A DNA stretch of 64,000 nucleotides from Chloracidobacterium sp. (GTDB lineage Bacteria; Acidobacteriota; Blastocatellia; Chloracidobacteriales; Chloracidobacteriaceae). Location: the NCBI GenBank assembly GCA_025057975.1, contig JANWUV010000002.1:1-64000 (forward strand), in the 5' to 3' direction. Shown here piece after piece: positions 2,193 through 11,000 of the stretch. Made by a program: the position numbers and the translations under genes. Each line of letters opens with the position of its first letter. Positions within the stretch are counted from its first letter, which is position 1. The notes under the pieces are model-generated. The model saw only the letters and a program-made list of their open reading frames with translations. It ran no database searches and was not told the DNA's origin.

Positions 2193-4961
<2,769 letters not shown>

Positions 4962-4982
4962 AAAAACGACGTTAGCAGCAAT

Positions 4983-5975
4983 TTGTCAGACGGCAGTCTA
5001 TCATCCGACCTGGAGACAATTGGCAATTGCTCTCTCCAGCTCTCCGCTTTGTCTGAAAGTTTTATAGACTCAAGTCCAGCAAGCGACCACAACAAAAAGA
5101 AAAAGAGCTACCGACCATCCGTGCAAATCCAGATCGTGGATAATGTCAAGTATAAAACAATAGAAACACTTGCCCTAAGTTTCGAGATGGCAAGCGACAT
5201 CCGGATTGCTGTGGCTTTTATCTCAAAAGATGGACTTGATGTAATCTTACCTTCAATTGAAAAAGCCTTAACAGCAGGTGCAAAAGTTGAGTTTCTCATA
5301 GGAATGGATACTCAGGCAACAGATGCAGCTGCAGTAAAGTACCTCTATGAACAGCTACATAAAACTAACCAAGCTAAACTTTTTTGCTTTGTTCCACAAA
5401 GTAGTTCAGCAATATATCACCCAAAGATGTATCTAGCAAAAAATGATAACAATGCGACTATTTTCATCGGATCATCAAATCTAACGAAACGTGGACTAAT
5501 GACAAATGTTGAAGTTAACTTGTTAGTTAGAGACAATGTTGACACAGAAATTGTATCAGAAGCTTATACAACATATGCCAGATTAAAATTTCATCCAGCG
5601 AGAGTTATACCGGATGACGATTTCATAGACTTATTCATTAGGTTATGTAATAAAACAAAAAGGTTATCAAGGAATTTATCAAAGAATCTTGAAATTCAAG
5701 AATTGCTAAAAGATTTCACTAAGAAAGCTCGTAGCCTACAAAAACCTCGACCAAATAGAGATGATTTAATTGGATGGGTAAAGGAAGTATATGACATTTT
5801 ACCACAAAATAAGTTTAATAATCAAGAAATCTATAAATTTGAAAAATATTTTAAGACCCTTTACCCGCAAAATAAAAATATCAGGGCAAAAATTAGACAA
5901 CAGTTACAAATATTACGTGATCTAAAATTGATTGAGCATGTAGGTAAAGGAACCTGGATAAGAAAACCTTCCTAA
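4983..5975 (+). CDS. Phospholipase-D-fold nuclease with C-terminal DpnI-like winged helix (putative restriction enzyme)
   Basis: 330 residues as read from a TTG at 4983; a GTG at 5121 is another possible start, and the first ~45 residues look unstructured. Residues about 55-190 form a PLD-like domain with one HxK motif (H146, K148 in IYHPKMYLAK) followed by FIGSSNLTKRGL, as in single-motif nucleases that dimerise to make an active site (Nuc, BfiI). Residues about 280-327 contain YFKTLYPQNKNIRAK, IRQQLQILRDLKLIE and GKGTWIR, which resembles the C-terminal winged helix of DpnI and similar restriction enzymes. The gene is very AT-rich against GC-rich neighbours, which suggests recent acquisition. 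No methyltransferase lies beside it. The domain call is from pattern; a restriction role is inference. Confidence 0.7.
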   Translation: MSDGSLSSDLETIGNCSLQLSALSESFIDSSPASDHNKKKKSYRPSVQIQIVDNVKYKTIETLALSFEMASDIRIAVAFISKDGLDVILPSIEKALTAGAKVEFLIGMDTQATDAAAVKYLYEQLHKTNQAKLFCFVPQSSSAIYHPKMYLAKNDNNATIFIGSSNLTKRGLMTNVEVNLLVRDNVDTEIVSEAYTTYARLKFHPARVIPDDDFIDLFIRLCNKTKRLSRNLSKNLEIQELLKDFTKKARSLQKPRPNRDDLIGWVKEVYDILPQNKFNNQEIYKFEKYFKTLYPQNKNIRAKIRQQLQILRDLKLIEHVGKGTWIRKPS

Positions 5976-6068
5976 GATCGTTAGCTTATTATCTGGTTTG
6001 CTAGAAATCCTGAAAATTGATTCACTGATGAAAATCAGGATTTTCTAGAATTTTGAAAACGTGCTAAC

Positions 6069-7670
6069 CTAAATTGGTCGCGCTTGTAAGTGCGCAATTC
6101 CGATTTTGTCGGCCGCCTTGAACAGAGCCGAGCCGATGACGTATGCCAGCACAAGGCTAAAGTAGGTTGATAGCCCCTTTCCAATGACAGCCTCCACTAA
6201 GCTTTTCACAATTGAATCGCCGACGCCTGTGCTGAATGCTGTGACTACCATGGCGTAGGTGACTTGTGAGAGCAATGAAATGGCGAGATAAAGCCCCAAA
6301 AGCGTCCAGTAAGTGCCGCCCATCCTCTTGATGGTGTCAAAACCGACCAGCGGATTGATGACGCTCCAGAAGTAACGTGAGTAGCCGGCGACAATTAGCG
6401 CAACCGGGTAGTAAAGCGTAATCCAAGCAATCGTCAGCACCAATAAGATGAATATTTGAGAAATCTGAGCATAAAAAGGTATCGTTTCTCTTAGAATGCG
6501 ATCCCTGAAAATACTTCCGGATGCTTCATCTTCGGAAATATCCTTGACATATCTACCTGTAATGAGATTGTCCTCCTTTGACTTATATTCTTCAAAAGCT
6601 TTCCAAATATCATCTTTGCTTACATCAAAATCACTCAAATCCAAAGCGTCAACTTCCCTTTCGCTGAGAGCTTTGAACAGCTTTCTATTTTCCTCATCTA
6701 TCCTGATGTCACTAGAGAGCAACCTTCCCTTCTCCAACTCAACAACGTATATTCCTTTACCTACTTCTTCACCGGAAACGGCCGACTCTGCTTTGTAAAT
6801 AGTGATAATCGTCTTATCCGATGATTTTTCTGTAGAATTGGAAGACATAAACGTTGATGTTAGGTAGAAAATCCCTAAACTGATGAGAATCGGGTATCCG
6901 TAGGTGACAATGGCAATGGCGGTGGCGAGCCGGGCGCCGGAAGTAATGTCGCTCATTTCAATCAATATATTGCCGTCCCGGATGCCGTCTGAAACCCGCT
7001 GAATGGTGATGGCGACATAGGCCATCCCAATCCCAATCGCAAGAAAATTTAGATAACTGGAGAATCTCCCCAGTACTGTACAGATGATAATAATTGTCGT
7101 TGTAGCCAAAAATCCAAACTTATCAATGAATGGATATCTTAATCCTTCTATGAGGTCGGCGATGCCGAACGGCTCCTGCTTACGCCTAGTCCATTCAAGC
7201 TCTTTCCGGTATGTTTCATACTTGGTGCAAAGACTCTTACACCTTGGGCATAGTCGCGTTGTCAGGTTGACTTCTTCCGGGCAGTTACGACAGTAGGCAA
7301 CGCTACAGTTTTGACAGACATACTGCGCCGGTACGCTCTGATGATTAACGCAGAAAGAGGATATTTCACGTAATCGCCTCGTGGATCGTTCCGGGCTAAC
7401 GCTTGCATATCCGCTTGGCGATGAGTATACACCTGAGCTTATTCCCGGTTGGACGCTTGGGCTTGTACTTTTTACATCACCTAATTGCTGCTCAAATAAT
7501 GCACGCAGTGGGGGAATGTTTTTGGCGGCCGTCCAGGGCAGATTTCCACGGCGTATTTTATCGTCTGGCTGTACCCGTCCCTCACGTATCCATTGCTCAA
7601 GTTCCGCCGTTGTCGCCTCGTATATGTTGTTCTCTATCTCAATTTCCCAAAGTCTTTCCTGCTCCTGCAT
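6069..7670 (-). CDS. GYF_2 / B-box-like zinc finger / multi-pass membrane protein
   Basis: 533 residues. Residues ~8-65 (LWEIEIENNIYEATTAELEQWIREGRVQPDD, split here by wording only in function: Trp-Glu-Ile start and a PWTAAKNIPPL end) resemble the bacterial GYF_2 domain. Residues ~105-150 carry CVNHQSVPAQYVCQNC, YCRNCPEE and CPRCKSLC, a B-box-type zinc-binding motif. The rest has several hydrophobic segments (TTTIIIICTVLGRF, AIAIVTYGYPILISLGIFYL, FILLVLTIAWITLYYPVALIV) interrupted by a charged ~130-residue extracytoplasmic or cytoplasmic domain, in the manner of Yip1-like proteins. The base composition is lower in GC than the neighbours. Function unknown; the modules suggest a membrane-anchored protein-interaction scaffold. 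No operon partner; neighbours are divergent or convergent. Confidence 0.7.
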   Translation of the reverse strand: MQEQERLWEIEIENNIYEATTAELEQWIREGRVQPDDKIRRGNLPWTAAKNIPPLRALFEQQLGDVKSTSPSVQPGISSGVYSSPSGYASVSPERSTRRLREISSFCVNHQSVPAQYVCQNCSVAYCRNCPEEVNLTTRLCPRCKSLCTKYETYRKELEWTRRKQEPFGIADLIEGLRYPFIDKFGFLATTTIIIICTVLGRFSSYLNFLAIGIGMAYVAITIQRVSDGIRDGNILIEMSDITSGARLATAIAIVTYGYPILISLGIFYLTSTFMSSNSTEKSSDKTIITIYKAESAVSGEEVGKGIYVVELEKGRLLSSDIRIDEENRKLFKALSEREVDALDLSDFDVSKDDIWKAFEEYKSKEDNLITGRYVKDISEDEASGSIFRDRILRETIPFYAQISQIFILLVLTIAWITLYYPVALIVAGYSRYFWSVINPLVGFDTIKRMGGTYWTLLGLYLAISLLSQVTYAMVVTAFSTGVGDSIVKSLVEAVIGKGLSTYFSLVLAYVIGSALFKAADKIGIAHLQARPI

Positions 7671-8029
7671 CTTCGAACCATCCTTTCGGCTATGCTCAAG
7701 TTATGAAGATATGACGTACTGCTTTTCAAGCCGAGGAGACACCAGACGAAGCGGTGAGCGCGAGGCATTGTTTTCATCTCCGCCGTAAATACCGCCGCTA
7801 ATGCAGGCATTGTTTATTTGTAGTCCATATAGCGACGGCGTTACAAAGTCAAGGCGTCAACCACTCTCGGCACGTGGGACAGTGGCAACCTGCGCCTTTG
7901 TTACATAGGCTTTACATCAAAGCCAAAAAGCTGAAAGCATACTGGGAAATAAGGCGCTGAATACCGGCAGTACGGCGCCGGGTTTGTTAGGCCTGTTCGG
8001 AATGCGGCGGCAAAATCTAAGGACTTCGG
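7671..8029. other. Divergent intergenic region upstream of the TonB receptor
   Basis: A 359-base region between the divergent GYF-domain gene and the TonB-dependent receptor gene, so it should hold promoters for both. I see no gene. The sequence AAGGA at 8019-8023, six bases before the TTG at 8030, is a good ribosome binding site for the receptor. No clear operator or riboswitch pattern was recognised. Confidence 0.5.
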
Positions 8030-11000
8030 TTGAAATTTATGCGATCTGAGTGGCTGCAAAGATTTTTCGTGTTTTTTTGGCTGTCTCTCTTGTCCGTTTT
8101 AGCCTGGGGACAGGCGAATGTCACCGGCGGCGCGCTAAGCGGTACGGTTAAAGACGCTTCCGGGGCCGTCATCGGCAACGCCGTCGTCAAGGTCAAGAAC
8201 GTAGAAACCGGACTGACCCGCGAGACAACCACTGGCGAGGACGGAACGTTCCGAGTCCCGGCGCTGGCCGCCGGCGCCTACGACATTACGGTGACGGCGA
8301 CCGGCTTCACTGAACTCACGCGACGGGCGACGGTGCTCATCGGGCAAACCGCCGGCGTCGAGATCACGCTTTCAGCCGGTGACATCAGTGAGACCGTCAA
8401 CGTCACCGCCGACTCAGCCTCGATTGTGGAAACCGCGCGCACACAGCAGTCCACGACGGTCAATGAGCGCGCCGTGAAAGATTTGCCGGTCAACGGCCGC
8501 AACTTCCTTGACTTTATCCGCCTAACGCCCGGCATCAATGTTGACCCTCGCGCTGGCGACTACTCCGCTGGCGGCCTGCGCGGAACATTCAACAGTCTGC
8601 TCATTGACGGCGCGGACAACAACAACACCTTCTTTGGACAAACCCTCGGACGCACCGGCGTGCGCGCGCCGTACCAGTTCAGCCAAAGCTCCGTCAAAGA
8701 GTTTCAGGTCAACACAAACAGCTACGCGGCCGAGTTCGGACGCGCCGGCGGCGCGCTGGTCAACGTCATCACGAAGTCCGGGACGAATGAATTTCACGGC
8801 GAAGGGTTTTACTTCTTCCGCGACAACGCGCTGAACGCCACCGACGGTTTCATTCGCTCGCTGCCGCCGCCGCGCAATCGCAAGCCGGATTTGCGCGTGC
8901 AGCAGTTCGGCGGCTCCATCGGCGGCCCCGTTCGGAAGGACAAGCTTTTCTTCTTCTTCACCTACGACGGGCAGCGGCGCAACGACCCAATCGTGGTGGC
9001 GCCACTCGTGCCGATCCCAACATCCTTTTCCCCGGCCGTGCCGGCGGATGTCGCTCAACGCACCATTGCTTTTCTGAACGCCCAGACGGCGCCGTACCAA
9101 GTGGGGTTCAACCAAGACGTGTACATGGGCAAGGTTGACTGGCAAATCAACAGCGACAATCGGCTCTCGGTGCGCTACAACCGCCAGCTTTTCAAAGGTA
9201 AAAATCAGGAAAACCCCGGACAGATTCGCAGCGTCAGCGCCACCGGCAACTCCAATTCGACGACGGACACCGTCACAGGCCAGATCACGACCATTCTGAC
9301 GCCGAACCTCATCAACGAAGGCCGCTTTGGCTTTTCGCGCGACCAGCAACTCGGTACAGCCAACAGCAATTCGCCGGAAACCATCATCAACAGCCCGGCG
9401 GGCAACACGCTGGTCTTTGGACGAAACAACTTCAGCCCGCGTGAGACGACCGAGCGGCGCTTCCAAGTCACCAATACGTTGACGTACGTGCGCGGGCGGC
9501 ACACGTACAAAGCCGGCTTCGACTTCATCTTCAACCGCATCTTCAACTTCTTCCCCGGCTTTTTCGGCGGGAGCTACGTCTTCAACAGCTACGAAGATTT
9601 TGCGCTGCGTCGTCCGAGCGGCGCCGGCGCGACGGCGATTGTGTATCAACAGGCCTTCGCCGGGCCAAACACCAACGGGCCGCGCTCGTACCCCAACACG
9701 AGCGAGTACGGCTGGTTTGTCCAAGACGACTGGAATATTACGAACCGCTTCAAGCTGTACTATGGTCTGCGCTACGACGCGCAGGTGAAAGACGAGCCGC
9801 CGGTGCTCAACGACGATCCGCGTCTGTTGGCGCTGGGGGTACGGACGCAAGGCCTCAAGCAGGACCTCAACAACTTCGCCCCGCGCGTCGGCTTCGCATG
9901 GAACATTTTAGGCGACGGCAAAACGGTGCTGCGCGGCGGCTATGGGATTTTTTACGCCCGGACGCCGAGTATTGTGACGGGGACGGCGCACACCCAGAAC
10001 GGCCTCAGTGTGCGGACGTTACAGTTCACGCAGGCGCAGTTGGCGACGACCGGCTTGACTTACCCAAACACCTTCGCCAGTCCGCCGGCCGGCGTGACGC
10101 CGCCCGCGTTGCAGTTGTTTTTCTTTGCAAGCGGCTATGTTGACCCGATGGTGCATCAGGCAAGTCTAGGTATTGAGCGCGAGTTGACCCGCGACTTGTC
10201 GCTGTCGGTGTCTTACCTGTTTACGCGGGGCATTCGATTGACGCGGACGCGCGACATCAACCTACGCCAACCAATTCCCATCCCTGTCAACATTGTGGGC
10301 GGCAACCCCGTCATCATTCCGCGGTATGTCATTGCGCCCGGCTCCAACGTGACGGCGCGGCCGACAAACCTCCTGCCTGTTCCGCCTCCGCCGAGTACGA
10401 ATGTGAGCTACGGACGGCTTTTCCAGTTTGAAAACACGGGCGACTCGGTTTATCACGCGCTGGCGGTTCAGGCGACGAAACGCTTCAGCCAAAACTTTCA
10501 GTTTTTGCTAGCCTACACTTGGTCAACGGCGATTGACAACCGCCCCGATCAGACGATTGTGACGGCCGGCGGCGGCGACACCAGCCGCCTCGTGGCAGAC
10601 CCGCTCAACATTCGCACCGAACGCGGACGCGCCGACGTGGACATTCCGCACCGGTTCGTCCTGAGCTACGTGTGGGAGCTAGCCTACGCCCGCAATCTCC
10701 AAAATCGCCCGGCGCGGCTGCTGCTGGACGGCTTTCAGTTCAGCGGGATTGTGACGGCGACTTCGGGCAGTCCGTTCTCGGCGCTCGCTGGCGGCGACCT
10801 CAACGGCGACGGGACGCCAGGCAACGACCGCGCGCCGTTCATCGGACGGAACACCTTCCGGCGCAAGGCGTTCGCGTCATTCGATTTGCGGCTGACCCGG
10901 ACAATTCCCATCACGGAGCGGTATCGTGTTGAACTGATTGCCGAGGCGTTCAACCTGTTCAACCGCTTCAATCAAGCGGCGGTGCAAACCAATCAGTTCG

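Follow-up and report, generated by a model that had tools for sequence, protein, structure and literature searches.

A stand-alone gene joining a PLD nuclease to a DpnI-type winged helix in an AT-rich island of a Chloracidobacterium genome: a further member of a recently published family

What kind of enzyme is encoded by a solitary gene whose first half resembles a PLD nuclease and whose second half resembles the methylation-reading winged helix of DpnI, and how can such a gene do without a companion methyltransferase? The question is raised by a 64-kb stretch of DNA (hereafter, the window) from what is presumably a Chloracidobacterium-type acidobacterium, possibly a thermophile. Judging from the sequence of the gene and of its relatives, we consider it quite probable that its product is a restriction enzyme of the PLD-winged-helix (PLD-wH) type, which would act alone, depend on modification (type IV) and cut 6mA-modified DNA by PLD chemistry.

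The open frame runs from 4983 to 5975 on the forward strand, i.e., over 330 amino acids when counted from TTG 4983, and it contains all segments quoted in an earlier note on this DNA: the HxK motif in the form YHPKMY, IGSSN, LYPQNKNIRAK and IRQQLQILRDLKLIE. Translation probably starts at GTG 5121 rather than at TTG 4983. A homologue on a viral contig (L044), which is also 284 amino acids long, begins at the codon aligned with 5121, and the starts of four further full-length relatives (L048, L049, L050 and L052) are found in the alignment at this codon or at most one residue away. In these five of the six relatives of the same clade, the aligned codon is the earliest ATG, GTG or TTG of the frame; the exception is L051, in whose frame earlier candidate starts exist. 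Because the starts of the relatives align at 5121, the earliest possible start in five of them, the gene is taken as 5121-5975 (+), encoding 284 amino acids. The in-frame extension at 4983-5120 lies beyond the region shared with the homologues, has a G+C content of 47% vs. 33.5% in 5121-5975, and is probably an untranslated leader. Residues are numbered from GTG 5121 below, unless the 330-residue frame is mentioned.

The PLD nuclease domain is encoded by positions 5121-5655 (+). In the 330-residue frame, Pfam reports PLDc_2 at residues 72-193 (E = 7.6e-12; 45.7 bits vs. a cut-off of 27) and RE_NgoFVII (PF09565) at residues 67-192 (E = 2.1e-7; 30.8 bits vs. a cut-off of 23.8). DrmC and other PADLOC models also match this half, and a sequence search of the PDB found 7clg, SauUSI according to the entry title, at residues 36-194 (0.0012). 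The full protein was modelled from a 24-sequence alignment of PLD-wH proteins (A5; in this alignment and in A4, the row of L051 runs from 4885, its aligned ATG is at 4855, and its first residues are absent), with a mean pLDDT of 92.6 and a pTM of 0.89. When residues 1-178 of the model were compared with known structures by VIA-align, SauUSI was the top match (Z 21.4, rmsd 2.0, 164 residues aligned), followed by NucT of Helicobacter pylori (Z 18.2, rmsd 2.3, 149 aligned), Nuc (Z 17.3, rmsd 2.6, 150 aligned), BfiI (Z 17.0, rmsd 2.9, 170 aligned) and NgoAVII (Z 15.5, rmsd 2.7, 162 aligned). The PLD fold proposed earlier for the nuclease is borne out by these matches.

The protein nevertheless differs from each of these enzymes. 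SauUSI is a 5-methylcytosine-dependent enzyme. It is ATP-dependent and consists of 953 residues, whereas the window protein has a winged helix instead and, in a Pfam search at E ≤ 1 over its 284-330 residues, no helicase domain. BfiI and NgoAVII/NgoFVII, which share the N-terminal PLD nuclease, read DNA by a B3-like domain and cut unmodified sites as ordinary restriction enzymes, whereas the C-terminus of the window protein is a DpnI-type winged helix. No PF06044 (PD-(D/E)XK) match was found at E ≤ 1 in the window protein; its catalytic half is the PLD domain. Like Nuc and BfiI, it has one HKD motif per chain. All 24 aligned PLD-wH proteins, of which the relatives come mostly from the best 80 of 510 confirmed loci, have identical residues at H100 and K102 of the HxK motif, S118 and N120 of GSSN (117-120), T122, G125, N129 and E131, and this invariance does not depend on the pattern used for selecting loci, [APD]KIRQQLQ. 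The invariance of H100, K102, S118, N120 and E131 argues for active catalysis.

The C-terminal domain, encoded by positions 5769-5957 (+), matches DpnI_C (PF17726) at residues 267-325 of the 330-residue frame (E = 2.9e-19; 69.5 bits vs. a cut-off of 23). Its best match by sequence in the PDB is DpnI (4esj; residues 263-325, 1.2e-8), and the PADLOC model mREase_II also matches the C-terminus (1.9e-15). The last 85 residues were modelled alone with a mean pLDDT of 85.9, and Foldseek gave three matches below 1e-3 for this isolated domain, all of them DpnI chains (9.4e-6 to 7.8e-5, TM 0.69-0.71 by query). In VIA-align, DpnI 4kyw was aligned over 83 residues (Z 11.7, rmsd 3.9), the next other entry reaching Z 9.0. 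K257 and R259 (K303 and R305 in the 330-residue frame) are the equivalents of K229 and R231 of DpnI, provided that chain 4esj_A has the three-residue offset deduced from where its K/R pair falls in a chain of 257 residues. Alanine variants at these two positions impair DpnI (PMC4117772). The KIRQQLQxLRD core is retained as well, although the invariance of KIRQQLQ among the relatives is partly built in, as loci were picked with [APD]KIRQQLQ. The winged helix is thus homologous to that of DpnI by both sequence and structure, in agreement with the earlier note, and the remote homology searches with the two halves lead to PLDc_2 and DpnI_C, respectively. The nuclease is what differs: DpnI has a PD-(D/E)XK catalytic domain that recognises G6mATC, too (PMC4117772), whereas the window protein has a PLD domain.

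The combination had been thought to be new. It is not: 27 PLD-wH fusions were described as putative 6mA-dependent restriction enzymes in the main text of Helbrecht et al. (2024; PMC11037411), and the window gene is a further member of this family. Two of the published fusions, Aba4572I and CbaI, were cloned and tested for toxicity, but their overexpression was undetectable; two more could not be expressed owing to toxicity, and purification of PLD-wH enzymes was unsuccessful. The wH fusions tested were toxic to Dam-positive cells, and the toxicity of CbaI was reported to be Dam-dependent. Aba4572I was an outlier, since it was toxic in a dam-deficient strain too, which the authors called “not well understood,” and tight binding and cleavage were, according to them, not distinguished in cells (PMC11037411). 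As far as their description allows a comparison, Aba4572I and CbaI have the same order of domains as the window protein, i.e., an N-terminal PLD domain followed by a C-terminal DpnI-type winged helix, and they originate from Chloroflexota, like three of the relatives discussed below (L048, L050 and L052). Aba4572I differs in having an adjoining methyltransferase, predicted for CGATCG, whereas no methylase was detected at the window gene. To stand alone is usual, with exceptions, for wH fusions: 87% of >1,000 have no methyltransferase within three genes on either side, 17 PLD-wH cases are located near type I methyltransferases, and <100 possible genome conflicts were noted (PMC11037411). The same type of winged-helix 6mA reader also occurs with another nuclease in HhiV4I/HHPV4I (PUA-wH-HNH), which differ from the window protein by their HNH nuclease and an extra PUA/SRA-like domain (PMC11037411).

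Close relatives are sporadic. Of 58 genomes from the taxonomic neighbourhood, 7 gave a match, which was the gene itself in the own genome and covered just one half in the other six. A phylum-wide draw of 247 genomes, overlapping the 58, had 24 genomes with a match, and the match was full-length in the own genome only. L044 was the single full-length relative in IMG/VR (34% identity, E = 9e-57). The plasmid and phage collections gave partial matches only (18 plasmid records and one phage record), none with ≥80% query coverage. A scan of viral sequences with the single sequence gave no match and, with a two-sequence alignment, the contig of L044 alone. A search pattern taken from the winged-helix region picked up L044, L045 and L046 among the viral contigs, as well as genome loci: scanning genome_contigs yielded at least 592 matches, 510 of which were confirmed, and the best 80 of these 510 were analysed. 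Among them are five full-length relatives with 40-56% identity, L048-L052, from Anaerolinea, Deltaproteobacteria, Anaerolineae, Armatimonadota and Chloroflexi, respectively, and a second PLD-wH group of 17 proteins that are 23-26% identical overall to the window protein. We refer to the window protein, L044 and L048-L052 (seven proteins) as clade A and to the second group as clade B, the sister lineage. In a winged-helix tree, A and B were both recovered as clades (99/99 and 98/94), apart from each other among other sequences, but a single common clade was not rejected (p-AU 0.159; 72 columns). In a PLD tree, for which one of 15 outside PLD proteins (L005) was dropped because the motif was not found in it, support was 87/86 for A and 100/100 for B, branches were long, and a common clade was again not rejected (p-AU 0.072). 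Both one and two fusion events therefore appear compatible with the trees.

How would such a protein work? By analogy with DpnI, the C-terminal winged helix would bind fully N6-methylated ApT, most likely within GATC or a similar sequence, and would thereby bring the N-terminal PLD domain onto the DNA. In Nuc and BfiI, two chains build one active site, and the metal-free reaction proceeds via a phosphohistidine intermediate. The window protein may, by analogy with these two enzymes, form a dimer as well, in which the HxK...GSxN motifs of two subunits would together make up one active site, and the cut would proceed without metal via a covalent phosphohistidine. The published account of the family likewise calls PLD endonucleases metal-independent, and a covalent intermediate is believed to occur (PMC11037411). 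The backbone would be cut close to the bound site instead of within it. Modification dependence of the protein is likely by comparison with its family. No protecting methylase would be needed if the host leaves its own DNA without the mark, and the gene, an accessory one for defence, could then move by itself, presumably acting against phages.

Whether the host leaves its DNA without the mark can be judged in part from its methylase genes. The genome contains three strong D12 matches, one weak one and, spread over four places, five N6_N4 matches. For two of the D12 enzymes, the nearest match is 7m6b (1.2e-92 and 6.4e-94), which we guess to be M.CbeI, rather than Dam or DpnM, the latter being far more distant (4.4e-10 and 2.4e-11). 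For one of them, a HaeIII-family restriction gene was seen at the match in 3 of the 12 plasmid relatives listed, all three from Nostoc. Since both are nearest to 7m6b and relatives of one have this HaeIII-family gene, these two enzymes are no argument for GATC methylation, and a conflict with host Dam methylation, as might be concluded from the D12 matches, is weakened as far as these two are concerned; we suspect that they are of the CbeI type (GGCC, N4-cytosine; cf. PMC3425538). The 406-amino-acid gene before the D12 gene of L133 matches REase_II of PADLOC (2.2e-56) and no Pfam family. The third D12 enzyme (L134) had no PDB match, and self-cutting might still result from the activity of the other D12 and N6_N4 enzymes of the host. 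D12 matches occur in 14 of 23 genomes carrying PLD-wH genes from the best 80 of 510, the own genome included (13 above the cut-off), and L048, the closest relative among the matches listed, has one full-length D12 match in its genome.

These host enzymes also bear on the alternative that survives best, which mostly overlaps with the reading given above: the protein would be a modification-dependent PLD-wH nuclease with a target other than G6mATC. Its mark would be either 6mA in a different context, of which other ApT contexts already belong to that reading, or some different base modification, such as those on phage DNA. We regard this as possible, if short of favoured. The presence of several amino-methyltransferases (D12 and N6_N4) in the host would fit it, as would the similarity of the PLD half to the 5-methylcytosine-dependent SauUSI. 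Moreover, the GATC-plus-6mA motif or a close variant was reported for about 10% of wH fusions and is thus missing from most of them (PMC11037411). Against it, the winged helix of the window protein retains the equivalents of the K229/R231 pair and the KIRQQLQxLRD core, and DpnI is its nearest solved relative.

The METHYLTRANSFERASES survey used 15 amino-methyltransferase queries in phmmer against open reading frames of ≥80 codons in the window, and within 5 kb at the other loci. No amino-methyltransferase was detected in the 64-kb window, and Pfam revealed no methyltransferase among the five neighbours of the gene, which thus appears solitary, as the earlier note had it. Among the other loci, i.e., L044 and the best 80 of 510, an amino-methyltransferase was found within 5 kb at none of 6 loci in clade A, at 8 of 17 in clade B and at 17 of the 58 other winged-helix loci, the flanks surveyed averaging 8.2, 7.8 and 8.3 kb out of 10 kb, respectively. 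The 58 are the rest of the best 80; a loose DpnI-like motif marked 47 of them and also one clade-B locus, with a Pfam check on L112 only. Clade B did not differ significantly from the other loci (Fisher p = 0.24), and the comparison of B with A gave p = 0.058. The idea that homologues would not be regularly linked to a methylase thus stands for clade A and fails in part for clade B. All eight methyltransferase-bearing loci of clade B carry a D12, N6_N4 or PF05869 Dam family member according to Pfam, and L059 and L079 each have a seemingly complete N6_N4 methylase on the strand of the PLD-wH gene, at a distance of 137 and 83 bases, respectively. In L048, a gene of 740 amino acids (7857-10079) begins 4 bases past the stop codon of the PLD-wH gene; by eye, it contains a SAM-methyltransferase-like DPFGFS motif, and it had no Pfam or PDB match.

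The linkage in clade B (8 of 17 loci within the best 80 of 510, with the short distances in L059 and L079) could suggest that the window gene encodes an ordinary type II enzyme, the winged helix of which reads plain sequence and which cuts unmethylated sites, with a distant host methyltransferase providing protection. The host does have several amino-methyltransferases, and BfiI and NgoAVII are PLD enzymes of this ordinary kind. We nevertheless consider this unlikely, as neither the window nor any of the 6 other clade-A loci has a detected linked methylase (the 740-amino-acid neighbour in L048 matching nothing), and the D12 frame beside PLD-wH genes of clade B is a fragment in both cases seen (positions 1-127 of 253 in L057 and 1-44 in L061). 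A role outside restriction, e.g., as a methylation-reading DNA binder with a silent or non-specific nuclease or as a toxin-like effector, would accommodate the Dam-independent toxicity of Aba4572I and the fact that binding and cleavage were not distinguished in cells (PMC11037411) but is improbable in view of the conserved active-site residues in 24 of 24 homologues.

For a modification-dependent PLD-wH restriction enzyme, natural evidence may be found in clade B, where PLD-wH genes and DpnI genes share their surroundings. The same PF05869 Dam gene (70-82% identity) lies downstream of the PLD-wH genes of L071 and L091 and of the DpnI-type genes of L099 and L112, in the same orientation and at offsets of +192 and +211 vs. 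+207 and +220, respectively. Also, the same N6_N4 methyltransferase (77-81%) is present downstream of L071 (+840) and beside L099 and L112 (+824 and +820), L091 sharing the Dam gene alone. The gene of L112 is a true PF06044-PF17726 DpnI according to Pfam, with which the gene of L099 shares 67% identity. The DpnI-type genes with these neighbours are from Flavobacterium loci. Furthermore, a related D12 frame stands upstream in five loci: of a PLD-wH gene in L057 and L061, and of a winged-helix gene in L099, L112 and L127, where it covers positions 1-54, 1-253 and 1-107 of 253, respectively. It is fragmentary in four of the five loci, to which errors in draft assemblies may have contributed. The complete D12 enzyme of L112 is DpnM-like (3.7e-49 to 2dpm) and located beside an apparently intact DpnI gene. 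From these sequences, we read that DpnI and clade-B PLD-wH genes occupy one slot in what would be a former GATC methylation locus, which supports an equal function of the two. This support is confined to clade B and does not extend to clade A, to which the window gene belongs. Judging by its main text, the slot sharing may not be reported in the 2024 paper (PMC11037411).

A wider scenario may be offered, tentatively and with more doubt than conviction. PLD-wH genes may have arisen by at least two fusions and have been exchanged with DpnI in a methyltransferase-bearing locus, with the winged-helix reader fixed and the nuclease changing; the lineage of the window gene, without a detected linked methylase, might then have a target different from G6mATC and tolerate host adenine methylases.

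The earlier note also considered the base composition foreign, and this holds: the G+C content of 5121-5975 is 33.5% vs. 59.7% for the window, and 855-bp stretches with an equally low value start solely within about 3,100-8,000 of the window. The low-G+C island (4962-8029) contains the PLD-wH gene together with a second gene, which is divergent and encodes a membrane protein. The PLD-wH gene had no match in six of six same-genus genomes (completeness 85-100%, with only one at 85%), and no full-length homologue of the membrane-protein gene was found in these genomes. The latter gene (6069-7670, reverse strand) is AT-rich and encodes 533 amino acids; a B-box zinc-finger match is under the Pfam cut-off, and the N-terminal ~90 residues are the sole part with matches in the genus. 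The upstream ppdK gene is present in all six genomes with 87-91% identity but in other surroundings. In 12-19 kb around ppdK in each of them, blastn revealed no other match to the window, and five window proteins had no tblastn match. As only ppdK matched in these regions, an empty insertion site could not be shown. No tRNA gene was found in the window, nor direct repeats in 4500-8600, where the only inverted pairs are two weak ones. Over the loci compared, nearly all of them from the best 80 of 510, the G+C content of the gene is below that of its flanks in 22 of 23 PLD-wH loci, as expected for genes that move. It is not a hallmark of PLD-wH genes, as 53 of the 58 other winged-helix loci are alike in this respect.

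If the protein works as proposed, it would be a small enzyme that cuts adenine-methylated DNA, perhaps without metal, useful for the mapping of 6mA, and an example of one methylation reader combined with different nucleases. As no PLD-wH enzyme was purified in the published work (PMC11037411), the window gene, which may be from a thermophile, and its clade-A relatives are further candidates for expression. The main value of the present data lies in the additional members of the lineage and in the sharing of one slot by DpnI and PLD-wH genes, the loci of the sister lineage being natural evidence that the two do the same job.

Some of the relatives have neighbours that deserve mention. The PLD-wH gene of L044 (4031-4885; 28% G+C) lies on a 15-kb viral contig, with phage-like genes (by eye, terminase-like and lysozyme-like) on one side and, on the other, a phosphoribosyltransferase gene with a gene resembling guaA (by eye) after it, which suggests that it is carried at the edge of a prophage. 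Another viral contig, L046 (3482-4627), encodes a DpnI-type winged-helix motif followed, by eye, by an HNH-like C-terminus, resembling HHPV4I/HhiV4I of archaeal viruses. In the two Chloroflexota loci L050 and L052, a 454-amino-acid SLFN_AlbA_2/HATPase_c_4 gene (2431-3795 and 2984-4348, respectively) is located directly 5' of the PLD-wH gene, and an acyl-CoA-dehydrogenase-like gene (by eye) is found downstream in both.
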